Source: an uncultured Roseovarius sp. (GTDB lineage: Bacteria; Pseudomonadota; Alphaproteobacteria; Rhodobacterales; Rhodobacteraceae). Taken from it: a stretch of DNA of 64,000 nucleotides. The DNA is taken from contig OX638333.1 of the NCBI GenBank assembly GCA_951812895.1, positions 3,824,001 to 3,888,000 on the forward strand, given 5' to 3'. The notes beneath the pieces were generated by a model. The model saw nothing but the letters and a program-made list of their open reading frames with translations, made no database searches and was not told where the DNA came from. The position numbers were made by a program, and so were the translations under genes. Numbering within the stretch: the stretch's first letter is position 1; each line of letters starts with the position of its first letter. Positions 52,845 to 64,000 of this stretch are shown in pieces.

Positions 52845-52880
52845 AAAAAAAAGACCCGCCAGCATTTCGCCGGCGGGTCT
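52845..52880 (-). terminator. Intrinsic terminator of the polyamine-type transporter operon
   Basis: On the minus strand AGACCCGCC (52880-52872) pairs with GGCGGGTCT (52860-52852), followed by a run of eight T. It lies just past the binding-protein stop at 52891. Confidence 0.9.
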
Positions 52881-52890
52881 GGTTGGGTTC

Positions 52891-53928
52891 TTACTTTTTG
52901 AGGTTGGTCCAGATGGTGTCGTATACGGCCTGGGTTTCCTCATTGCAGACCTCGATAAAGACACCCGCTCCAGCGTCAGCAGGCGGGTTCGCCTCTGGCA
53001 GGGTGGCCAGTGCCGGATCAAGATGCTCTGACACACCGCTTACACCCGCACCGTAGCGAGCGTAGTTGGAAACCGCAGCGATGTTCTCAGGCTCCAGCAG
53101 GAAATCCATGAACTTTAGCGCGTTGGCACGGTTGGGTGCATCTTTGAGCAGCACAACATTGTCCATCCAGACCACATAACCCTGCTGTGGAAAGGCGTAC
53201 TCGACATTTGCACCTTCTTCACGCGCCTTGGCACCAAAGCCGTCATAGATCTGGCCAACCGCGGCATCACCCGAAACCAGTACTTCCTTGGCTGTATCAG
53301 AGTTGAACGAGGCCCAGTTCCCTTTGGCCTCCTGAAGCATTGCGTTCAGTGCCTTGAGTTGTTCGCGGTCGTTTGAACATTGCGGCATCCCCATATGCAG
53401 CGAGGCCATTGCCAGAACTTCGCCCTGGCTGTCGAGCATGTTGATCTTGCCCGCCAGTTCAGAGGGCGGGTTGAATAGAATGTCAGTGGTATTGATATCA
53501 CCGCTATAGACATCGCGGTTCACTGAAAAGCTGGTTGAGCCCCACTGATAAGGGATCGAATGCTTACGACCGGGATCAAAGCTCGGGTCTGCCCATTCCG
53601 GTGCAATGTTGCCGCTGTTGGCAAGCTCTCCGTCGGCGATGGTGTCAAGCATCCCTTCGCCCGCCATGATCGAAACCATGTAATCGCCAGGGACAGCAAC
53701 GTCATATGTGCCGATGGCCCCTGCTTTGAGCGAAGCCAGAAGCGACTCGTTCGAATCGTAGGTGTCCATGACAACCTCAACCCCGTGCTCAGCGGAGAAT
53801 TTATCCAAAAGCTCCTGAGGGATGTATTCGAACCAGTGATAGATCACCAGTTTTCCCTCGGCACTGGCCGCATTGGCGGCCAGTGCAAGGGCCATCGCGG
53901 TGGCAGTCGTTTTCAGTAGTGTTTTCAT
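52891..53928 (-). CDS. PotF-type substrate-binding protein of a polyamine ABC transporter
   Basis: A 345-residue periplasmic solute-binding protein with a signal peptide (residues 1-23, cleavage after ASA). It has the PotD/PotF-family start VIYHWFEYIPQELLDKF, YDSNESLLASLKAG, YDVAVPGDYMVSIM, PYQWGSTSF and AVGQIYDG. The family binds putrescine, spermidine or related amines. GGAG lies six bases before the ATG at 53928. It is the last gene of the operon, and its strong terminator follows. The open frame extends far upstream into the permease gene but is not coding there. Confidence 0.92.
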   Translation of the reverse strand: MKTLLKTTATAMALALAANAASAEGKLVIYHWFEYIPQELLDKFSAEHGVEVVMDTYDSNESLLASLKAGAIGTYDVAVPGDYMVSIMAGEGMLDTIADGELANSGNIAPEWADPSFDPGRKHSIPYQWGSTSFSVNRDVYSGDINTTDILFNPPSELAGKINMLDSQGEVLAMASLHMGMPQCSNDREQLKALNAMLQEAKGNWASFNSDTAKEVLVSGDAAVGQIYDGFGAKAREEGANVEYAFPQQGYVVWMDNVVLLKDAPNRANALKFMDFLLEPENIAAVSNYARYGAGVSGVSEHLDPALATLPEANPPADAGAGVFIEVCNEETQAVYDTIWTNLKK

Positions 53929-53944
53929 GTTGGTCTCCCTAGTT

Positions 53945-54757
53945 TTATTTTGTGTTGTCGGATTTGCTGACGAAGTACGAGATCGTGACCATGATGATCG
54001 ACACCGCCAACAGCATTGTCGAAATAGCCATGATATTGGGTTTAATACCCTGTTTGACCGAACCAAAGATCGCTGTTGGCAGGGTTTCGACACCCGCACC
54101 TTTGACGAAGTTAGTGATGATGAAATCGTCAAGCGAGATGATGAAGGCCAGGATGTAGCCAGAGATAATGCCCGGCAGCATCAGGGGCATCAGGATCTTG
54201 GTAAAGGCCTGCCGCTTGGTGGCATAAAGGTCCATTGCGGCCTGCTCATAGGTATCCTCGATACCCTGCATCCGGGCCGAGATCGGCATATAGGCAAAGG
54301 GGATGCAAAAGGCGATGTGGGCAACAAGTATGGTCAGATAACCTCGTGTAAAGCCGATCGAGTTGAAAAAGATCAGTGTTGCCACCGCGGTTACGATCTC
54401 GGGCACCATCAACGGCAGGCTGATCAGGCCAAAGGAAACAGTGCGCAGTTTGAAGCGCCCACCGCGAACCATCGCCGTCGCAGCCAAAGTGGCAATCGTG
54501 GTTGAGACGGTTGCAGCGATGATCGCGATGGTGAAACTGTTCCAGGCGGCAATTTTGAATTTCTCGGATTCAGGCCCGGTGAAGACATCCGCATACCAGC
54601 GAAAGCTTACCCCCTCCCAATTGGTGATCGAGTTGCTGTCATTCAGCGAATAGATCGTCACCACCGCCAAAGGTGCATAGAGGATCACCAGGCATAGTAT
54701 CGTCATTGGCAAGAAGCCGGGGAACGCTTTGATATCGTATTTACCGCGTGCCATCAT
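53945..54757 (-). CDS. ABC transporter permease, PotI type
   Basis: A 270-residue inner-membrane permease with about six transmembrane helices ([20 protein letters not shown] first). It has the EAA-type loop [20 protein letters not shown], which docks on the ATPase, and the [16 protein letters not shown] stretch typical of PotC/PotI. It starts at adjacent ATG codons that overlap the stop of the partner permease. It pairs with the PotH-type permease to form the channel. Confidence 0.92.
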
Positions 54758-55683
54758 CCTGCTCCTTTCTCTGCTTTGGCCTGTTGGCGTGCAAAGATCA
54801 TCAGGATGACCAGCACCATGCTCAGCAGGATCATCGAGGCTGCTGCCCCAAAGGGCCAGTTACCCGCATTGCCTTTGAACTGCTCTTCAATAAGCGATCC
54901 GATCATGAAATTCTTCGCTCCACCCAGCAAGTCAGGCGCCAGAAACGAACCCAATGATGGGACAAAGACCAGAATACAGCCGGCAATTACCCCGGGTTTT
55001 ACTGCTGGCAGTAGTATCCGGCGCAGAGTTGTCATCTTACTGGCATAGAGGTCGGCAGCGGCCTCGGACAGGTTGAAATTATAGCGCTCGACAGAGGCGT
55101 AGATTGGCAAAACCATGAAAGGTAAGTAGGAATAGAAGAGCCCCAGTTGCACAGCGAAATTTGTGTTCACGATATGAATGGGGCTGTCGATCAAGCCGGT
55201 AGAGATCAGGAAATCGTTCAACGGCCCCTGATCGCGCAGCATAAATTTCATGCTGACGGTGCGGATCAGCAGATTGACCCAATAGGGAATGGTGATCAGA
55301 AAGACCCAGACCGGGCGCACACTTTCAGGCCGCGTGGCGATGAAATAGGCAGTTGGGAATCCGATCACCAGACTGAGAAGTGTTGCAGCCCCGGCCTGCC
55401 AGATCGAACGCCAGAAGATGTTTATATACGTCCATTCGACGGTACAGGGTTCATCTCCGAACAGCCCGCGACTGCAGAAGAATTGATCATAGGCGGCAAA
55501 GGAAAGTTCCCAGATCACACCGCCGCGGAATTCCTTCGTCAGGAAGGAGTAGACCAGCATCATCAATACTGGCGTCAGGATAAAGATACCAAGCACTGCC
55601 CAGGCCGGAAGTAATAGCCATGTACGTGCATCGGCGTAGGTATCGGATTTGGCGCTGCCGCCGCTTGCTGCCCCCGCCGCCAT
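54754..55683 (-). CDS. ABC transporter permease, PotH type
   Basis: A 309-residue permease with about six transmembrane helices, an N-terminal [20 protein letters not shown] segment, the motif YWVNLLIRT characteristic of PotB/PotH, and the EAA loop [20 protein letters not shown]. The start ATG overlaps the stop of the ATPase gene (TGATG). An insert with [14 protein letters not shown] after the first helix is a periplasmic loop. Confidence 0.92.
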
Positions 55684-56774
55684 CAGTCAACCAGGAGGCG
55701 CGCAGCCTCCGCCTCCATGTTGACATATGCCGCAGCACCTGGTTCAAAAATTCGTTTGTTGCCGCGATCGGAATTGGAGGTTCGTACTATCATTTTTGGG
55801 CCGTCTGCCAGATCGATGATCGTCTGAATATCAGTACCGACAAAAATGTTGTCGCGGATCGTGCCTTTTAGGCTTTCGGATTCAGTGGGTTCGTCTGACA
55901 AGAACAAGCGTTCTGGGCGCACAGACATGTGTACGTTCGCACCGACACCGATCCCTTCAACTTCGCTGCAGGTCAGTTCGTGCCCGCCGCCCAGATGGCA
56001 TATGGCGCGACCATTGGTGATCTGATCAACGGAAACTTCCAGAAGGTTAGTTTCGCCGATAAAGTCTGCCACAAACATGTTGTGGGGACGCTCGTAAATA
56101 TCCTTGGCCTCGCCCAATTGCTGCATTTCACCAGCAGACATCACCGCGATTCGGTCAGACATTGTCAGGGCTTCCTCCTGATCGTGGGTGACGAAGATGA
56201 AGGTAATGCCGGTCTCGCGCTGCAACTCTTTCAACTCAAAACGCATCGCCTGCCGCAGCTTCAGATCCAGCGCCGATAAGGGTTCATCCAACAGCAGCAC
56301 TTTGGGTTGTGGCGCCAGCGCACGCGCCAGCGCCACACGTTGTTGCTGACCACCAGAGAGCTGTGATGGTTTCCGGTCAGCAAACTGTGAAAGCTGAACA
56401 AGCTCCAGCATTTCGCCCGCACGTTTGCGCGCGTCAGACTTGGACTTGCCCCGCATTTCGAGGCCAAAACCAACATTCTCGGTGATGCTCATGTGCGGGA
56501 AAAGGGCATAGTTCTGGAAAACCGTGTTCACCGGGCGTTTGTTGGGTGGCAGGTTTTCGATTTCATCGCCAAAGAGGAATATGGCTCCCTCGGTGACGTC
56601 CTCAAATCCGGCAATCATCCGCAGAAGCGTAGTCTTACCGCAGCCAGATGGACCCAGCAACGTAAAGAATTCATTGTCGTAGATTGACAGCGAAATCCTC
56701 TGCAAAGCCGTGAAGTCGCCATAGCGCTTAACCGCATCGCGCACGTCGATGGCTATTATCTCTTTGTCCGACAT
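55683..56774 (-). CDS. ABC transporter ATPase, PotG type
   Basis: A 363-residue ATPase that powers the transporter. It has Walker A GPSGCGKTT, the signature LSGGQQQRVALARAL, Walker B VLLLDEPLSALD, the switch His in FVTHDQ, and a C-terminal TOBE domain. I chose the ATG at 56774 because GGAGG lies just before it; the frame starts four codons earlier. It is the first gene of the transporter operon (G-H-I-F order). An inverted repeat at 56857-56873 upstream is a regulator-site candidate. Confidence 0.93.
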   Translation of the reverse strand: MSDKEIIAIDVRDAVKRYGDFTALQRISLSIYDNEFFTLLGPSGCGKTTLLRMIAGFEDVTEGAIFLFGDEIENLPPNKRPVNTVFQNYALFPHMSITENVGFGLEMRGKSKSDARKRAGEMLELVQLSQFADRKPSQLSGGQQQRVALARALAPQPKVLLLDEPLSALDLKLRQAMRFELKELQRETGITFIFVTHDQEEALTMSDRIAVMSAGEMQQLGEAKDIYERPHNMFVADFIGETNLLEVSVDQITNGRAICHLGGGHELTCSEVEGIGVGANVHMSVRPERLFLSDEPTESESLKGTIRDNIFVGTDIQTIIDLADGPKMIVRTSNSDRGNKRIFEPGAAAYVNMEAEAARLLVD

Positions 56775-56856
56775 ATCCCCTCCCATCAGAGAATTTCCCT
56801 TGATTGACGATAAGGCCTGAGCGCAGTGTCACTAAGAATTGAGTCCCTTAGCGAAC

Positions 56857-56873
56857 ATTAGGCTCAAACTAAT
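56857..56873. promoter_or_regulatory. Operator candidate upstream of the transporter operon
   Basis: ATTAG-N7-CTAAT, a perfect five-base inverted repeat containing a T-N11-A core as in LysR sites, lies 83 bases before the ATPase start. A related TTAGG...TTAA sequence occurs at 59076-59090 before the amine dehydrogenase gene. The cluster's LysR protein is the natural candidate binder. Confidence 0.4.
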
Positions 56874-56922
56874 CAATTATGCACCGCACGAAGCAACAGG
56901 TGAACTCATCCAATCTTTCACT

Positions 56923-58992
56923 TTAGTCTGTCGCCAATTCGGTGATCTCACGGCGGAACGGCAAATCGTCGCCAATATCCGCACCATCCAGCTCGCGGGC
57001 ATAGCGGTGTCCGGCATAGGTTGACCATGCAATTGGTCCCGGCGCTTCGGCGTCTCCAAAAATCTTAACCGATTTGATGCCTGCATCGACCCAGTCGGCC
57101 TCGCGGGCAATCAAGTCATTATAGATTGCATCATTGCCCGACCGGGACGCAACCATAACCACAGCCTCAGCCGCAAATTTCTGCGTGCGCCCCGTGTAAA
57201 TACAATCGCTTACCACATGATCTGACCCGATTTCAGTCACTCCGCGATTAAGCACAATCTCAACACCCAGCTCAGCCAGTCTAGCGTGAATTGTTCCTTG
57301 TTCCAGAGTATTGTTCGTCCAGTCAGAGACAAAGGCAGACGGCGTGATTAACGTAACCTTGGCACCATTTTTAACCAGCAGCTCGGCCAATACACCACCC
57401 ATGTAATAATGATCATCATCGTAGACCACGACATTGCCTTCCGGCACTGTGCCATCCATCAGGTCGTCCGGTGTATATACCTTTGCGGTTTCTGAGATCG
57501 GCATTGGAACAACGTGCTGACGAGATACGCCATCGCTCCGCCAGCTTGCCCCGGTGGCAATCGCCACGTTCTCAAACCCGAATTCCAGAATGCTGTCGGC
57601 ATCCAATTCACTGTCGAAATAAATGTCGACATTCGGGCGCTGCTGTAGCTGGTATTCACGATAATCCACAACACGTCCCCACGCACTGAGCCCGGGCAAT
57701 TGCCGTTCGCGGGTCACACGACCACCAATCTCTGTTTTGGCCTCAGCAATGGCAACATCATATCCACGTCGCGACAGTGCCCATGCGGCTTCCAGTCCGG
57801 CAGGTCCGGACCCTACGATCAGCACATTGTCACTGTCGCCTTTTGCATTCATCTTTTCCGGATGCCAGCCCTTGCGCCATTCTTCCATGAAGGTCGGGTT
57901 CTGGGTGCAACGGCTGATTGACATGGTCATGTCGCCGGTGATGCAGATATTGCAGCCAATGCATTCGCGGATGTCTTCGATCCGGCCTTCCTCGACTTTC
58001 TTGGGCAAGAACGGATCAGCGATAGATGGCCGTGCACAGCCGATGAAATCCAGCACACCCGATTTGATCTGCTTGACCATGACATCGGGGCTGGTGAACC
58101 GGCCCACACCCACGATCGGCTTGTCGGTCAATTCGTGAATGCCCTTGACCAGATCATGCTGCGCGGCCTCTTCCTTGAAACGACTCGGTCCTGAGCAATC
58201 TTCCCATGTCCCCTGCGCCAGATCCCAAAGATCGGGCAGGTCTTTGTTCATTTCGACAAAGTCGCGCACCTCGGCATTGGAAAACCCCAACTCGCCAATC
58301 GTCTCATCAAGGCTGACTCGTAAAGTCAGTGCCATAGTATCGCCCACAGCATCGCGCATGTCGGCAATCACCTCACGCGCAAATCGCGAGCGGTTCTCAA
58401 GGCTACCACCATATTCGTCGCTGCGTTGGTTAGTGGCACGGCTCAGAAAATGCTGGAAGATGCCGAAACCATGCGCACCATAAAGGCAGATCAGGTCAAA
58501 GCCTGCATCCTTTGATCGTTTCGCGGCATTTACAAACCAACGTCGCAGATCCTTGATATCGGATTTTGAGAGGGCTCGGGCCTGAATGGGATCATTTGTA
58601 AACGTCCTAATTGGCAAAGCAGACGGCGCAAGCGGCACCTCTTTGGTGTAAAGATTAGGGCCGTTGATGCCAGAATAGGCCAGTTGAATTCCCGCCAGCG
58701 CGCCGTGCTCTTTCATCTTCTCCGACATTTTGCGCAGTTGTGGGATGTCCTTGTCTTCCCAAAGGCGCAATTCAATGAACGGGGTGATTTCCGATGTATG
58801 GTGCATTTCGCACTGCTCGGTAAAGATCACGCCCCAACCGCCTTCGGCCTTGATCCCGCGCATAGCCGCCGCAGCAGACGGGTCGCGATAGCCACCACCA
58901 TTGCAATGCGGCACCTGATAAAAGCGGTTTTTGGCCCGAACCGGACCGACTTGCATCGGCTCAAATAATATATCGTAGCGTGGATCGCGCAA
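56923..58992 (-). CDS. 6-S-cysteinyl-FMN / 4Fe-4S amine dehydrogenase, histamine-dehydrogenase-like
   Basis: A 689-residue flavoprotein of the trimethylamine dehydrogenase (TMADH) family. Residues 1-370 are an Old Yellow Enzyme-like barrel with C30 in NRFYQVPHC, the Cys that carries covalent FMN in TMADH, and the Y171-G-A-H174 motif. C344, C347, C350 and C362 are in position to bind a 4Fe-4S cluster. Residues 385-689 hold ADP- and NAD-like domains (VLIVGSGPAGLEAAW). Of the TMADH substrate-cage residues, Y60 is Gln60 and W355 is Asp354 here, while W263 is kept. I recall this Gln/Trp/Asp set from histamine dehydrogenase, also about 690 residues. It should oxidise a primary amine to aldehyde and ammonia. 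Translation starts at TTG, seven bases after GGGAG. Confidence 0.9.
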   Translation of the reverse strand: MRDPRYDILFEPMQVGPVRAKNRFYQVPHCNGGGYRDPSAAAAMRGIKAEGGWGVIFTEQCEMHHTSEITPFIELRLWEDKDIPQLRKMSEKMKEHGALAGIQLAYSGINGPNLYTKEVPLAPSALPIRTFTNDPIQARALSKSDIKDLRRWFVNAAKRSKDAGFDLICLYGAHGFGIFQHFLSRATNQRSDEYGGSLENRSRFAREVIADMRDAVGDTMALTLRVSLDETIGELGFSNAEVRDFVEMNKDLPDLWDLAQGTWEDCSGPSRFKEEAAQHDLVKGIHELTDKPIVGVGRFTSPDVMVKQIKSGVLDFIGCARPSIADPFLPKKVEEGRIEDIRECIGCNICITGDMTMSISRCTQNPTFMEEWRKGWHPEKMNAKGDSDNVLIVGSGPAGLEAAWALSRRGYDVAIAEAKTEIGGRVTRERQLPGLSAWGRVVDYREYQLQQRPNVDIYFDSELDADSILEFGFENVAIATGASWRSDGVSRQHVVPMPISETAKVYTPDDLMDGTVPEGNVVVYDDDHYYMGGVLAELLVKNGAKVTLITPSAFVSDWTNNTLEQGTIHARLAELGVEIVLNRGVTEIGSDHVVSDCIYTGRTQKFAAEAVVMVASRSGNDAIYNDLIAREADWVDAGIKSVKIFGDAEAPGPIAWSTYAGHRYARELDGADIGDDLPFRREITELATD

Positions 58993-59075
58993 TTTCCGGC
59001 TCCCTTTCCGAATTAGCTTTCCAACAAGGTCTCAGATTAAACAGTTTGGATAAAGTCGACACTGCGGAAGCTTGG

Positions 59076-59090
59076 GTTAGGTTTTACTTA
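59076..59090. promoter_or_regulatory. Second operator-like sequence, upstream of the amine dehydrogenase
   Basis: TTAGGTTTTACTTAA contains a T-N11-A core and shares its TTAGG start and TAA end with the inverted repeat upstream of the transporter operon. It lies 84 bases before the dehydrogenase start. The match is weak on its own. Confidence 0.3.
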
Positions 59091-59109
59091 AGCAAATCCA
59101 GCTGTTAAC

Positions 59110-60057
59110 TTAGCGGTGTGCTATGGCTGGCGCCATGTTCATGCCAGGGATGCTCTCATTGGTAAGTTTAACACGGCACAGATCGATAAACGCCTGAACT
59201 GTCAGAACATTTTGTGCGCCTTGTGATGTCACCAATCCCATCCGTAAATGCCGCACTTTATCTGTGATCGGCACATATTTCAGCCTTCGCCCATCAGGGG
59301 CCGTATCGTTACTGAAGCGGATATTAAGGAGAGAATAGCCAAAATCATTTGCCACCAGACTGCGCAGAACCGCCATATCACGCGATCGTTCAGCGATGTT
59401 AGGCTTGGTTCCATTTTGCGCGAATAGGGACAGAAAGTATTCAGAGCTCAACGGCAGGTCCAACAAAACCAATTCAAATTCCTGCAACTCTTCCAGAGAA
59501 ACAGACGTACGATTTGCCAATGGATGGCTTTCACCAAAAATCGCATAGGGTGGCAATTCGGCAAGTGGCAGAAATGTCAGATCGGTCGGAATATCAAGAT
59601 CGTACGTCAGCGCCACATCAATATCCGCACGACGTAGCATTTCGATCAGGGCGGTCTGGTCACGCTCTACCTGGCTGACCGTGACATCAGGGTAGCGGCT
59701 TTCAAACTCACGCCGCAGGCCAGGTACAATAATCTGCGCAAAAGTCAGCAAACACCCAACGGCCAAGGGCCCCTGAACAAAGCCAGAGATATTGTCGGCA
59801 AGCCTGTTCAGAGCCTCTGTTTCACTCAACACCGTTTTGGCCTGCGTCATAAATTGCCGGCCGGCCTGTGTAAGTGACAGCCCGTGGGCATGTTTTCTGA
59901 CAAACAATTGCAACCCGAATTCGTTTTCAAGCTGCGAGATAGCAGCCGAAATCGATGGTGAAGAAACATTCACCATCTCCGAGGCAAGCGCGATCGAACC
60001 TGCCTCGCCGACTGCAACAAAATATTCCAGCTGACGCAATGTGAACCGCAAAGGCAT
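59110..60057 (-). CDS. LysR family regulator of the amine catabolic cluster
   Basis: A 315-residue LysR protein: the winged helix has LRQLEYFVAVGEAGSIALAS and SSPSISAAISQLENEFG, then an effector domain over about 90-300. It sits between the aldehyde dehydrogenase and the amine dehydrogenase on the same strand, so it likely controls the cluster and may be cotranscribed with it. AAGGA stands nine bases before the ATG at 60057. The frame is open 36 codons further upstream, inside the preceding gene. Confidence 0.9.
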   Translation of the reverse strand: MPLRFTLRQLEYFVAVGEAGSIALASEMVNVSSPSISAAISQLENEFGLQLFVRKHAHGLSLTQAGRQFMTQAKTVLSETEALNRLADNISGFVQGPLAVGCLLTFAQIIVPGLRREFESRYPDVTVSQVERDQTALIEMLRRADIDVALTYDLDIPTDLTFLPLAELPPYAIFGESHPLANRTSVSLEELQEFELVLLDLPLSSEYFLSLFAQNGTKPNIAERSRDMAVLRSLVANDFGYSLLNIRFSNDTAPDGRRLKYVPITDKVRHLRMGLVTSQGAQNVLTVQAFIDLCRVKLTNESIPGMNMAPAIAHR

Positions 60058-60088
60058 AGGTGAACTATCCTTTGCGGTCCTGCAGAAT

Positions 60089-61585
60089 TCAAGCCTGATA
60101 CTTGATCCAGGTCGTTTTGAGGGCAGTATATTTATCCAGGCTATGCAGCGACAGATCGCGGCCAAAGCCGGATTGCTTTATCCCGCCAAACGGTGTTTCG
60201 GCGGAAAGCGCATCAACGGTGTTGACCGATACGGTGCCTGCTTGCAACGCGTCGGAAACACGATGTGCCCGGCTTAGATTGTCAGTCCACACTGACGCTG
60301 CCAACCCATAGACGCTGTCGTTGGCCATACGCACAGCGTCTTCCTCATTGTCGAATGGAATAATCGACAGGACAGGGCCAAAAATTTCATCGCGCGCAAG
60401 GGGATCGTCATGATCAACGTCAGTGAAAATTGTCGGTTGTACGAAACATCCCCTGCCGTTGACCTGCACCCGCTCACCACCGGTTGCCAGATTGGCTGTT
60501 TTCTTGCCGGCCTCTACGTGGCGCATGATGCCTTGGGTTTGGTTCTCGTCCACGATCGCACCCATTTTCGAAGCCGGATCCAGAGGATCGCCCGGCTGCA
60601 TACCCTGTGCCCGCGCGACCATGCGGTCAACGAACTCATCCTTGATAGAACGTTCGATATATAGTCTGGAGTTGGCCGAGCAAACCTCGCCTTGGTTGAA
60701 GAAAATTCCAAACGCCGCCATATCCGCCGCCGCATCCAGATTTTCACAATCGGCAAAGATTAGGTTGGGGCTTTTGCCGCCGGTTTCCGGCCAGACAGAT
60801 TTGAGGTTCGACTGGCCCGAATACTGCATAAATATCTTACCCACTGCGGTCGATCCGGTAAATGCAAGCGTATCCACATCCATATGCAGACCCAATGCTT
60901 TCCCCGCCGTCACACCAAAGCCCGGCACCACGTTCAGCACGCCATCAGGCAGTCCCGCCTCGGCGGCCAGTTCAGCCAGACGCAGGGCGGAGAGTGGTGA
61001 TTGCTCCGCCGGTTTGAGGACAACAGAGTTACCCGCCGCCAATGCTGCGGCCGATTTCCAAGTGGCCATATCCAGCGGGAAGTTCCATGGTGTCACCGCA
61101 CCGACCACGCCCAATGGCACGCGTTTCACCAGCGCCAAATCACCGGGGCCTGTCGGCGCCACTTCGTCATAGATCTTGTCGATGGCTTCTGCATACCACT
61201 GAAAAAAATGCGCCGAACCGGGCGCATCAACTGTCACCGCATCGGTGATGAGCTTACCCATGTCCAGACTGTCCAGCAGGGCCATTTCTTCTAGGTTTTC
61301 ACGAATCAAGTCGGCCAGCTTCAAAAGCACTGCCTTGCGATCTCCCGGTGCCGCTCGGGACCAGCTTCCTGTATCAAACGACTTGCGTGCGGCAAGGACT
61401 GCCCGGTCCACATCCTCGACGTCACAAGCTGCGACTTGTGCCAGTACATCACCTGTGGCCGGGTTGATGCAGTCAAATGTCTCGCCCGAAGCCGCATCGA
61501 CGAACTTGCCATCGATAAAGGCCTGATTGCGCAGGCTCAGGGCATCAGCCCGTGATTTCCAGTCGTCGTGTGAATAGTCGAGCAT
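60089..61585 (-). CDS. PuuC-like aldehyde dehydrogenase
   Basis: A 498-residue NAD(P)-dependent aldehyde dehydrogenase: TPWNFPLDMATWK, KPAEQSPLSALRL, FTGSTAVGKIFM, the general-base Glu in PETGGKSPN, and the nucleophile in NQGEVCSANSRL. By memory it resembles E. coli PuuC along its whole length, including WYAEAIDKIYDEVA, GLPDGVLNVVPGFG and the FGRDLSLHSLDKYT end; PuuC oxidises aminoaldehydes from putrescine. It would oxidise the aldehyde made by the amine dehydrogenase. GGGAG stands six bases before the ATG. It follows the DUF1028 gene after 16 bases. Confidence 0.93.
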   Translation of the reverse strand: MLDYSHDDWKSRADALSLRNQAFIDGKFVDAASGETFDCINPATGDVLAQVAACDVEDVDRAVLAARKSFDTGSWSRAAPGDRKAVLLKLADLIRENLEEMALLDSLDMGKLITDAVTVDAPGSAHFFQWYAEAIDKIYDEVAPTGPGDLALVKRVPLGVVGAVTPWNFPLDMATWKSAAALAAGNSVVLKPAEQSPLSALRLAELAAEAGLPDGVLNVVPGFGVTAGKALGLHMDVDTLAFTGSTAVGKIFMQYSGQSNLKSVWPETGGKSPNLIFADCENLDAAADMAAFGIFFNQGEVCSANSRLYIERSIKDEFVDRMVARAQGMQPGDPLDPASKMGAIVDENQTQGIMRHVEAGKKTANLATGGERVQVNGRGCFVQPTIFTDVDHDDPLARDEIFGPVLSIIPFDNEEDAVRMANDSVYGLAASVWTDNLSRAHRVSDALQAGTVSVNTVDALSAETPFGGIKQSGFGRDLSLHSLDKYTALKTTWIKYQA

Positions 61586-61601
61586 TTGTATCTCCCTGAA
61601 T

Positions 61602-62276
61602 TTATTGGTCGCCGGGCACGCCATAAGAGGGCGCCTCTCGCGGGTCGAGCGCCCGTTGGATGTAGGCCTCCAGCTGCGGTTTGTAGACATCCCAGGCGGT
61701 TGCGATGGCCTCGATCGGGCAATCCTCGGTCCAGTCACAGCGCAGATCGGCAACCGGCCAGCTGACCTTGTCCACGACTTTCATGCCCGCAGAATGTATC
61801 GGCCCGGCTTCACCTCCGGCGGCCAGTCCGGCACGCATCGCCGCGATCAGGCGGTCCCCAATATGGCCTTCGGCCTCAAGGAACCCATCCACGATTGCTT
61901 GTGGTACCTTGTCATTGGCCAGAAGGTTGCCACCCGAGGCCACGTTTTGTGCCTGCGCCTGCGTCCAGATACCTAAAGAGTTGGGCCCGGAGTGGATCGC
62001 CGTTCCGCCCGCCTTGTCAACTGCCAATACCTGTCGGTATTCGATGAATTTGCCGCGCAGTGACACTTCTTCAACGGCCTCTTTGGCTGTCAGACCACTT
62101 TGCATCAGATCAAGCGCCATTGGCCCCAGCGACGGATCAGTTACATTCTGAGATGCAACCGCGCCAACGCCCGCGCGCGCAAAGGAGCAGCGTGCCGCAA
62201 CTGCAGGTGAGGATGAAGAGATTGCCAACCCGAACGTGCCGGTTTCTTCACAGCGCGCAACAAGAGAAAATGTCAT
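61602..62276 (-). CDS. DUF1028 family protein (Ntn-hydrolase fold)
   Basis: A 224-residue protein with the DUF1028 start MTFSLVARCEETGTFGLAIS and the AGVGAVASQNVTDPSLG block, then SGGNLLAN and PIHSAGMKVV. The family has an N-terminal-nucleophile hydrolase fold; Thr2 after Met removal is the likely nucleophile. A peptidase or amidase role is inferred, and the natural substrate is unknown. It lies five bases after the Rid gene and 16 before the aldehyde dehydrogenase. In this context hydrolysis of an amide or glutamyl conjugate of the pathway amine is possible. Confidence 0.88.
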   Translation of the reverse strand: MTFSLVARCEETGTFGLAISSSSPAVAARCSFARAGVGAVASQNVTDPSLGPMALDLMQSGLTAKEAVEEVSLRGKFIEYRQVLAVDKAGGTAIHSGPNSLGIWTQAQAQNVASGGNLLANDKVPQAIVDGFLEAEGHIGDRLIAAMRAGLAAGGEAGPIHSAGMKVVDKVSWPVADLRCDWTEDCPIEAIATAWDVYKPQLEAYIQRALDPREAPSYGVPGDQ

Positions 62277-62281
62277 CGCTG

Positions 62282-62698
62282 TCAGCCCGGAATAACGGCA
62301 GTGCCGTCAATTTCCACCAGCCAATCGGGGCGAGCCAAGGCTTGAACCACCAATCCGGTCGAGACCGGATGCACGCCTTTGATATATTCGCCCATGGTGC
62401 GATAGACAGCTTCGCGATGGCGCACGTCGGTGATGTACACCACAACCTTGACCAGATGCTCAATCGAGCCGCCGGACTCTTCGATCAGCTGCTTGATATT
62501 CTGCATGACCTTGTGGGTTTGTTCTACCGGATCATGGCTGTTTATGTTGACTGCGTCATCCAGGTTTTGAGGACACTGACCGCGCAGGTAAACGGTCTTG
62601 CCGCCCTCGGTCACCACTGCCTGGCACAGATCATTATCCAGATTTTGTTCAGGGTAGGTGTCAGATGTATTGAATTTTCGAATGCGGGTATGGGTCAT
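62282..62698 (-). CDS. Rid (YjgF/UK114) family protein lacking the catalytic Arg
   Basis: A 138-residue Rid-fold protein with VVTEGGKTVYLRGQCPQN, the KVMQNIKQLIEESGG helix, and a VEIDGTAVIPG C-terminal strand. RidA enzymes hydrolyse reactive enamines and imines using an Arg in an ARSCVEV-type motif. At the matching place this protein reads PVSTGLVVQ, with Ser113 near where the Arg should be. It is therefore more like the Rid groups without that residue and may not be an imine deaminase. AAGGA stands seven bases before the ATG. Confidence 0.88.
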   Translation of the reverse strand: MTHTRIRKFNTSDTYPEQNLDNDLCQAVVTEGGKTVYLRGQCPQNLDDAVNINSHDPVEQTHKVMQNIKQLIEESGGSIEHLVKVVVYITDVRHREAVYRTMGEYIKGVHPVSTGLVVQALARPDWLVEIDGTAVIPG

Positions 62699-62758
62699 GT
62701 AGCGTTCCTTGGCACTTTAAATCGTGAATATCTTGTGAGTTGTATCTTGCGGGTGCAG

Positions 62759-64000
62759 TTACTCTGCGGCAGGGATCGCCCGTTCATCAGGTCCTCGATA
62801 GCTCAGGTAATTTCGCTGGATCGCAATCTGGTCTGCTACGTGTTTTGCGTCATGCCAGATGCCCCAAACAAAGGTCGAGCCTCTGCGCGACTGCCAGGGC
62901 AGCCCCAGGAAATAGACATCCGGTTCAGACGAAACGCCACGCTGATGGACAGGCTTGCCAGCATCATCGAACGCATCCACATTCAGCCAACTGAAGTCCT
63001 GACGGAAACCAGTTGCCCAGATGATCGCGGTGATGCCGGCTTTGGCCAGATCAAGTTCACTGATCGGGTTAATCAGGCAATCCGGATCCGGTGGAAATTG
63101 CCGGGCCTCAGGTTCTTCCGGCAGTTCAATTCCGGTCCGCGCAACATAATCATCCGCAGCATCCAGCATTGCCAGATATTGCTGGTCACCAGTTCCGATA
63201 TTTTGCTGGAGGTCACCTGCAAAGCGAAAGACGCCGTTTTCGTAGGTTTCAGTCATGCCGACCAAGTTTATTCCGTCGCCTGCCATACGGCGGAAATCGA
63301 CCGTATTGCCACCATGCGCGCCGCTGACGCAAATGGTAAAACGTTCGCTTCCCGGTGCCATCGAAGGCGCTTCCCAAAGGCCAAGAACTCCCAGCCACCA
63401 AACATTGTCGCGGCCTCTGTATCGGCGCGGCGGGCGCTCGTGAGGTCCAACCGAGAGAAAGACGTTCTTCCCCTCACGCCGTAGTTCCTCGGCAATCTGC
63501 ACTCCGGACGATCCGGCGCCTACAACCATCACGTTACCCTCAGGAAGTTGCCCGGGATTGTGGTAATGGAAAGAGTGCAGTTGAAAGATTTTCTCATCCT
63601 TCGGAACCAGAGGAGGAATCACGGGAATCTGGAACGCCCCTGTTGCGGTGACAATGCGGTTTGCCTCAATCCTGCCCTTGGATGTGTCGACAATGAACCC
63701 GCCGTCCTTCTTCCTTTCAGCCTTAAGAACCTCGACGCCGGTGCGTATCGGCGCGTCAATCATGTTCGCGTAATCGGCCAGGTATTTCGCCATGCGTTCT
63801 TTTGGCACAAAGGAATCCGGGTGCGAGTCCTCGAACTCCATATTAGGAAACCGATCATGCCACGCCGGACCATTCGCTACCATTGAATCCCACCGACCAG
63901 AACGCCAGGATTCAGCGACGCGGTTCTTTTCAAGTACAATATGCGGAACCTTGTTATTGCGAAGGTGCTCACTCATCGCAATCCCAGCCTGACCGCCGCC
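62759..64000 (-). CDS. Flavin-containing monooxygenase-like protein, 5' end cut by window edge
   Basis: The frame stays open to the window edge, so the true start and first few residues are missing. The visible 413 residues include GGGQAGIAMSEHLRN (FAD-binding loop), VVGAGSSGVQIAEEL for NADPH, an IWATGFRQDFSWL motif and a central FHYHNPGQLP. This matches class B flavoprotein monooxygenases (FMO/CzcO-like). It is the first gene seen of the catabolic block, 60 bases before the Rid gene. Imidazoleacetate monooxygenation would be a fitting role if the substrate is histamine, but sequence alone cannot show it. Confidence 0.85.
   Translation of the reverse strand, partial: GGGQAGIAMSEHLRNNKVPHIVLEKNRVAESWRSGRWDSMVANGPAWHDRFPNMEFEDSHPDSFVPKERMAKYLADYANMIDAPIRTGVEVLKAERKKDGGFIVDTSKGRIEANRIVTATGAFQIPVIPPLVPKDEKIFQLHSFHYHNPGQLPEGNVMVVGAGSSGVQIAEELRREGKNVFLSVGPHERPPRRYRGRDNVWWLGVLGLWEAPSMAPGSERFTICVSGAHGGNTVDFRRMAGDGINLVGMTETYENGVFRFAGDLQQNIGTGDQQYLAMLDAADDYVARTGIELPEEPEARQFPPDPDCLINPISELDLAKAGITAIIWATGFRQDFSWLNVDAFDDAGKPVHQRGVSSEPDVYFLGLPWQSRRGSTFVWGIWHDAKHVADQIAIQRNYLSYRGPDERAIPAAE

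Follow-up and report, generated by a model that had tools for sequence, protein, structure and literature searches.

What does a run of ten genes in the genome of an uncultured Roseovarius sp. do for the cell that carries it? The genes lie at the end of a 64,000-nucleotide stretch of contig OX638333.1 (positions 3,824,001 to 3,888,000; the window below), in a genome consisting of one contig of 4.54 Mb. They encode, in order on the minus strand, an FMO-like flavoprotein monooxygenase (FMO), a Rid-family protein, a DUF1028 protein, a PuuC-like aldehyde dehydrogenase (ALDH), a LysR regulator, a flavin mononucleotide (FMN) dehydrogenase, and the PotA, PotB, PotC and PotD components of an ATP-binding cassette (ABC) importer. 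Sequence comparisons suggest, with a probability of about 0.83, that this operon takes up and degrades histamine through hin-type imidazole ring opening. The importer would probably bring histamine in, the covalent-FMN, iron-sulphur dehydrogenase would convert it to imidazole-4-acetaldehyde and ammonia, with electrons passing probably to electron transfer flavoprotein (ETF), and the ALDH would convert the aldehyde to imidazole-4-acetate. The HinF-type FMO would oxygenate the imidazole ring, the Rid protein (HinL) and the DUF1028 amidase (HinH) would open and deiminate it in either order, and an M20 deformylase (HinG), encoded outside the operon, would release aspartate. The HinK-like LysR would probably sense imidazole-4-acetate. 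We favour histamine over putrescine or agmatine because the FMO, Rid and DUF1028 genes correspond to hinF, hinL and hinH both in their order and in their type, and because the pocket of the dehydrogenase equals that of the Rhizobium histamine dehydrogenase.

The best relative of the dehydrogenase in the PDB is the histamine dehydrogenase of Rhizobium sp. 4-9 (6DE6, 1284 bits), followed by that of N. simplex (3K30, 835 bits), 6L6J (683 bits) and trimethylamine dehydrogenase (TMADH, 530 bits). The window enzyme and 6DE6 are identical at 544 of 686 aligned residues (79%) and at 87% over the first 412. Cysteines C30, C344, C347, C350 and C362 are common to the window dehydrogenase, 6DE6 and TMADH; we take Cys30 to be the covalent FMN site and the other four to be iron-sulphur ligands. 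With this identity to 6DE6 and Cys30 present, the gene is what an earlier reading of the letters without database searches (the sequence-only reading) had called it, a covalent-FMN amine dehydrogenase of the histamine-dehydrogenase type. Nineteen FMN-contact, active-site or substrate-tunnel positions are named for the Rhizobium enzyme in PMC10180351 (papers are cited here from excerpts, to which statements about them are limited), and the window enzyme has the same residue as 6DE6 at all 19, the last three compared being A173, G175 and L567. At Q60, F72 and N110 it differs from the three closest paralogues encoded in its own genome, whose identity to it is 49-53%. When a 16-position check was extended to 37 family and 7 plasmid regions, at least 13 of the 16 positions were kept in all but L160, a fragment whose coverage leaves out most of them; the changed positions were T262, D265 and, once, M355. 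The nearest named relatives are from Pseudohalocynthiibacter, Leisingera and Paracoccus. By these comparisons the window dehydrogenase is a histamine dehydrogenase orthologue, and oxidation of histamine is its predicted reaction. The excerpts of PMC10180351 treat the Rhizobium protein as an isolated enzyme, and the word operon is absent from that paper. The Roseovarius genome also holds a tandem of three TMADH-family genes, one with Tyr60 like TMADH (G000:C1:3194663-3201007, L042).

The second line of evidence is the set of genes at the start of the run. In the hin pathway of Pseudomonas putida U and P. aeruginosa (hinACD, hinFLHG and hinK), HinF is a flavin adenine dinucleotide (FAD)-monooxygenase (EC 1.14.13.5), HinL an enamine deaminase, HinH an amidase, HinG an amidase (EC 3.5.1.8), HinD an aldehyde dehydrogenase, HinI an aspartase and HinK a LysR regulator, and hinF, hinL and hinH take imidazole-4-acetate towards aspartate (PMC8231116, PMC6467879). 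In the window, FMO, Rid and DUF1028 genes are adjacent in the hinF-hinL-hinH order at 61602-64033, and we equate them with these three genes by order and type rather than by published Hin sequences. The likeness by type extends to the ALDH and the LysR, and imidazole-4-acetate is likely the central intermediate in both systems. The window differs in having a flavin dehydrogenase in place of the aminotransferase HinC and an ABC importer in place of the APC-type carrier HinA, and in its closely spaced single run of genes with hinG unlinked; neither hinC nor hinA is among the operon genes, the part of the genome to which this search was confined. Hydroxylation of imidazoleacetate by the FMO, a guess of the sequence-only reading, fits what has been published on HinF. 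That reading also proposed to look upstream of the FMO for imidazolone-type hydrolases; the cassette employs enzymes of other types, namely Rid, DUF1028 and M20.

The order of these genes is widely conserved. Using an alignment of FMOs, we searched named genomes and took the best 80 of at least 579 confirmed relatives, a sample biased to Gamma- and Betaproteobacteria because the first alignment member came from Pantoea. In 67 of the 80 loci, FMO, Rid, DUF1028 and M20 hydrolase genes followed one another in that sequence, on a single strand and over no more than 6.5 kb; the other 13 comprised ten with all four genes rearranged or spread more widely, two without an M20 gene in the stretch and one FMO alone. 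Two of the 80 loci are from P. putida (L105, L114). The window FMO is 60-70% identical to the FMOs of hinFLHG-type and dehydrogenase-linked loci. In none of these 80 best-ranked loci did a match of at least 45% identity cover half of the dehydrogenase; an Ideonella locus (L099) gave a 54% match over 312 columns, ended by the edge of the stretch, and two others gave matches of 25-26%. On plasmids of Pantoea dispersa and Klebsiella pneumoniae (L164, L166), a 57%-identical FMO adjoins an ABC importer with no Rid or DUF1028 gene in the stretch. The MSMEG_0569 flavoproteins belong to the same family as the window FMO by sequence but are only 38-39% identical to it, and the single neighbourhood examined is a nitrilase cluster, presumably of the Nit1C type.

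We modelled the DUF1028 protein (predicted local distance difference test score, pLDDT, 92) and found a close structural match in 2IMH, itself a DUF1028 protein. Matches to Anbu, HslV and the proteasome were weak (E 1.7e-5 or weaker, TM-scores below 0.6), and because of them the model suggests a probable N-terminal-nucleophile hydrolase-like fold. Met1-Thr2 is invariant in all 38 aligned proteins (the window protein and 37 of 78 found), which makes Thr2 a candidate nucleophile and would fit the description as an amidase. DUF1028 matches occurred in 3 of 14 control genomes, none of them named Pseudomonas, and no paper using the word DUF1028 was found in the literature searched. A second DUF1028 and Rid pair is present in the Roseovarius genome (G000:C1, about 368.7-385.4 kb; L040:3758-20000, L041:3362-5434) with genes for two Rieske oxygenases, an HpaB-type monooxygenase, a short-chain dehydrogenase, a LysR, an ABC importer and a 49%-identical histamine dehydrogenase paralogue; it possibly serves the breakdown of another N-heterocycle.

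The remaining enzyme and the regulator are consistent with the same pathway. The ALDH, which scored 628 bits against the PuuC model (cut-off 850), is the counterpart of hinD in the operon, with a substrate role predicted by its type. The best PDB sequence match of the LysR is 6M5F (E 2.4e-51, 32-34% identity), with 3FZV next and CysB at 3e-24, and its structure model (mean pLDDT 87) also has 6M5F, titled HinK of P. aeruginosa, as its top fold match. HinK is reported to respond to imidazole-4-acetate (PMC8231116), and it is by analogy that this compound is the probable signal in Roseovarius.

Is the dehydrogenase regularly found with the hin-type genes? Within a family sample of 198 genomes, each with its own genus label, 38 had a window-type dehydrogenase (at least 64% identity, two of them partial). 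An FMO (E 1e-100 or better) was present in 37 of these 38 genomes compared with 30 of the 160 others (Fisher p 1.6e-20, treating genomes as independent and leaving their relatedness uncorrected), and in 29 of the 38 the FMO and dehydrogenase genes were no more than 12 kb apart. Within the 38 regions, which include that of the window and some cut short at contig ends, we counted Rid in 30, FMO in 29, DUF1028 in 28, LysR (at least 50% identity) in 23, PotD (at least 50%) in 22 and M20 in 17. On this association across genomes we reject a chance grouping of genes, and the recurrence of the arrangement across genera likewise indicates more than chance.

A search for the same gene set in other Rhodobacterales, which the sequence-only reading had recommended, found it again on annotated plasmids of Pseudohalocynthiibacter, Leisingera, Parasedimentitalea and Paracoccus seriniphilus. 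On a Rhizobium gallicum plasmid, tblastn placed homologues of ETF, aspartase, FMO, LysR, ALDH, histamine dehydrogenase, Rid, DUF1028, M20 and Pot genes together within about 17 kb, the Pot genes being of a more distant type. In Shinella there was no FMO in the stretch examined. ETF subunit and aspartase genes stand divergently beside the histamine cluster in Pseudohalocynthiibacter (L034:4519-7707) and R. gallicum (L161:4064-about 7350), an arrangement suggesting that ETF accepts the electrons and that aspartate is the end product. Some relatives have a gene for an HpaB-type flavin monooxygenase in or beside the cluster (L034:16318-17832, L036:6688-8220, L130), and in Leisingera methylohalidivorans a dodecin gene (L035:14082-14288) lies between the dehydrogenase and M20 genes. 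In five regions (L151-L155) a dehydrogenase homologue of 65-66% identity has no hin genes around it, and four of these regions contain Pot genes; in these dehydrogenases D265 is changed and the other 15 checked positions are kept.

The layout of the genes is given in the table. By open reading frame coordinates, neighbours in the run are separated by gaps of 5-136 bp or overlap by 1-4 bp, and from this spacing we infer that the ten genes are co-transcribed. The minus-strand run with small gaps and a strong terminator at its end was found just as the sequence-only reading had described it, except that the FMO gene, although present, starts beyond the end of the window. The next gene upstream of it, which encodes a LuxR/TPR protein, is 283 bp away, and this makes the FMO gene the probable start of the operon. 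The terminator stem (9 of its pairs G-C) is the longest among 16 pattern matches in the region, a count that is unremarkable because shuffled versions of the region average 11.4. An Rfam search of the stretch holding the operon with the full FMO (L002) gave no match, and a tRNA scan of stretch L003 found none.

Table. Genes and terminator of the putative histamine operon, in window coordinates (the window ends at 64000).
Feature	Position	Strand	Details
FMO-like flavoprotein monooxygenase, hinF-type	62759..64033	-	424 aa; start 33 bp past the window
Rid-family protein, hinL-type	62282..62698	-	138 aa; PF01042; second gene in the conserved FMO-Rid-DUF1028-M20 order
DUF1028 protein, hinH-type	61602..62276	-	224 aa; PF06267
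PuuC-like aldehyde dehydrogenase, hinD-type role (predicted)	60089..61585	-	498 aa; PF00171
LysR regulator, HinK-like	59110..60057	-	315 aa; best PDB match 6M5F
Histamine dehydrogenase orthologue (by sequence)	56923..58992	-	689 aa; TTG start at 58992
PotA-type ABC ATPase	55683..56786	-	TIGR01187 potA subfamily, above cut-off
PotB-type permease	54754..55683	-	NCBIfam scores nearer PotB than PotH
PotC-type permease	53945..54757	-	NCBIfam scores nearer PotC than PotI
PotD-type periplasmic binding protein, changed pocket	52891..53928	-	NCBIfam score and pocket alignment
Intrinsic terminator	52852..52880	-	13-pair stem and T run

Besides the uncorrected relatedness of the sampled genomes, several observations weigh against histamine breakdown by this operon. 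hinG is not part of it; the best homologue in the genome, an M20 peptidase at 68% identity (G000:C1:2817478-2818620), is unlinked and lies among unrelated genes, and the best aspartase match in the genome is 41%. ALDH at 60% identity or more was found in only 9 of the 38 dehydrogenase regions, and eight regions (L140, L146, L151-L155 and L160) are without FMO, Rid and DUF1028, all but L153 having Pot genes. Eight of the 38 genomes have their FMO at a distance from the dehydrogenase or on a different contig, and one (G036) has none at E 1e-100. The eight unlinked FMOs are 55-65% identical to that of the window; homologues of about 57% occur beside an ABC importer (annotated as polyamine in Pantoea) in stretches that contain neither Rid nor DUF1028, so some of the eight may be something other than HinF. 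It is the 29 linked cases that carry the linkage argument. The published record on transport points the same way: the known histamine carrier is the APC-type PA0220/HinA (PMC2542419, PMC8231116), PotD of P. aeruginosa (PA3610) showed no histamine binding, and PA0222, predicted to bind polyamines, binds GABA (gamma-aminobutyric acid) and not histamine (PMC6829864). PA0222 is encoded in the PA0218-PA0222 group together with hinK, hinD, hinA and hinC, and for PA2592 with histamine a thermal shift only is reported (PMC6829864).

What, then, does the importer carry? It had been labelled PotGHIF in the sequence-only reading, a label that gives way to PotABCD on NCBIfam scores (PotA 410 versus PotG 309 bits, PotB 239 versus PotH 190, PotC 209 versus PotI 190, PotD 190 versus PotF 122). 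None of the four proteins reaches the PotABCD equivalog cut-off, and only the PotA subfamily model TIGR01187 was passed. Like the E. coli PotABCD importer of spermidine and putrescine, the system has four components, and its binding protein keeps W34, E36, Y37, Y85, E171, W255, D257 and Y293 of PotD; it differs at four pocket positions (D168S, W229Y, S83G and T84D). For PotD residues beyond E36, E171 and D257, the names, and part of the numbering, are those that we assume. W34, E36, Y37, Ser168, E171, W255, D257 and Y293 are constant in all 22 binding proteins of at least 65% identity, the window protein included, in a comparison that left out matches shorter than 250 residues, below 30% identity or with stops.

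These features leave room for a scheme in which histamine is degraded as proposed above but enters the cell by another route, the cargo of the Pot importer being a different compound such as GABA or putrescine; we consider this unlikely but a serious contender. It would agree with the GABA specificity of PA0222, which resembles the window protein in its polyamine-type prediction and its position beside hin genes (a likeness by description, not by sequence) and differs in binding GABA rather than histamine (PMC6829864). It would also agree with the residues unlike PotD at positions 168, 229, 83 and 84 and with the second Pot type that accompanies the dehydrogenase in Shinella, L125 and L129. 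Against this stand the presence of PotD (at least 50%) in 22 of the 38 dehydrogenase regions and the three retained acids E36, E171 and D257, which are spermidine ligands of PotD (PMC4096761) and would suit a di-cationic ligand better than GABA. We therefore regard histamine as the likely cargo, and this as the least secure part of the proposal, given what PA0222 binds. The sequence-only reading, which put forward uptake and oxidation of histamine or a related diamine, is thus supported, the oxidation with the 6DE6 pocket and hinFLH-type genes behind it and the uptake as its least certain part.

Could the operon instead serve another diamine, such as agmatine, 1,3-diaminopropane or putrescine, in which case the dehydrogenase and Pot importer would form its core and the FMO, Rid and DUF1028 proteins would have another role? 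With its rate on histamine set at 100%, the Rhizobium enzyme reaches 10% on agmatine and 13% on 1,3-diaminopropane (PMC10180351). The importer belongs to the polyamine type, and among the eight dehydrogenase regions lacking FMO, Rid and DUF1028, Pot genes are present in L140, L146, L151, L152, L154, L155 and L160, whereas L153 lacks these as well. However, the linked genes match hinFLH, which serve to open a ring and would be superfluous for an aliphatic diamine, the LysR is nearest to HinK, and the pocket equals that of a histamine-preferring enzyme. Given the hin-type cassette and the HinK-like regulator, we set an aliphatic diamine pathway aside as first choice and judge it improbable.

Slightly less probable still is an operon for another imidazole amine, N-methylhistamine for instance, whose ring would be opened in the same manner. 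In its favour, histamine is proposed as the substrate from sequence, and the transporter pocket differs from that of PotD; against it, the dehydrogenase has the very pocket of an enzyme known to prefer histamine. A methylamine enzyme (trimethylamine or dimethylamine) in a cluster for one-carbon amines can be dismissed: beyond the family resemblance to TMADH at 530 bits, the window has Gln60 where TMADH has Tyr60, which counts against this identity, the Tyr60 paralogue in the same genome is a better methylamine candidate, hin genes have no known methylamine role, and a pocket matching 6DE6 makes activity on those two amines only, the outcome that would have overturned the sequence-only reading, unlikely.

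The sequence-only reading knew of no described cluster with this combination. The literature searched agrees as to the combination, and the ring-opening half is already known as hin. No paper describing hin genes alongside a histamine dehydrogenase, and none describing an ABC histamine importer, turned up in a search that mostly excluded subscription papers and so leaves the absence of such reports unproven. New relative to this literature are the dehydrogenase replacing HinC and the ABC importer replacing HinA; pathway and enzyme were known separately, the ring-opening genes from Pseudomonas and the dehydrogenase chiefly from laboratory work on the enzyme. A hin-type set with other neighbours was also seen: GMC oxidoreductase and ALDH genes occur with hin-type genes in 7 of the 80 FMO loci plus Acetobacter (L039, L044, L067, L068, L087, L102, L103, L113), and a cytosine-permease-like gene in three of these seven loci and in Acetobacter. 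Tentatively, and with more doubt than confidence, one may view hinFLHG as a portable cassette for opening the imidazoleacetate ring with interchangeable entry modules. This view joins three points: in Rhodobacterales and rhizobia the module would pair histamine dehydrogenase with an ABC importer dedicated to histamine; GMC oxidoreductase and ALDH, sometimes with a cytosine-permease-like carrier, would be the module of Acetobacter, Pantoea, Paraburkholderia and some Pseudomonas; and DUF1028 would be an N-terminal-nucleophile amidase replacing the HutI-type ring-opening step. The GMC-type module is a possible entry for imidazole-ethanol, a yeast alcohol.

Overall, our analysis suggests a likely physiological pathway for histamine dehydrogenase, the enzyme of food-testing kits to judge from a paper title, and proposes a reaction for DUF1028, a family of unknown function in Pfam. 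If the proposal is true, the importer would be the first ABC-type histamine importer as far as the literature searched shows. The operon also suggests that marine and plant-associated Alphaproteobacteria may draw nitrogen from histamine.

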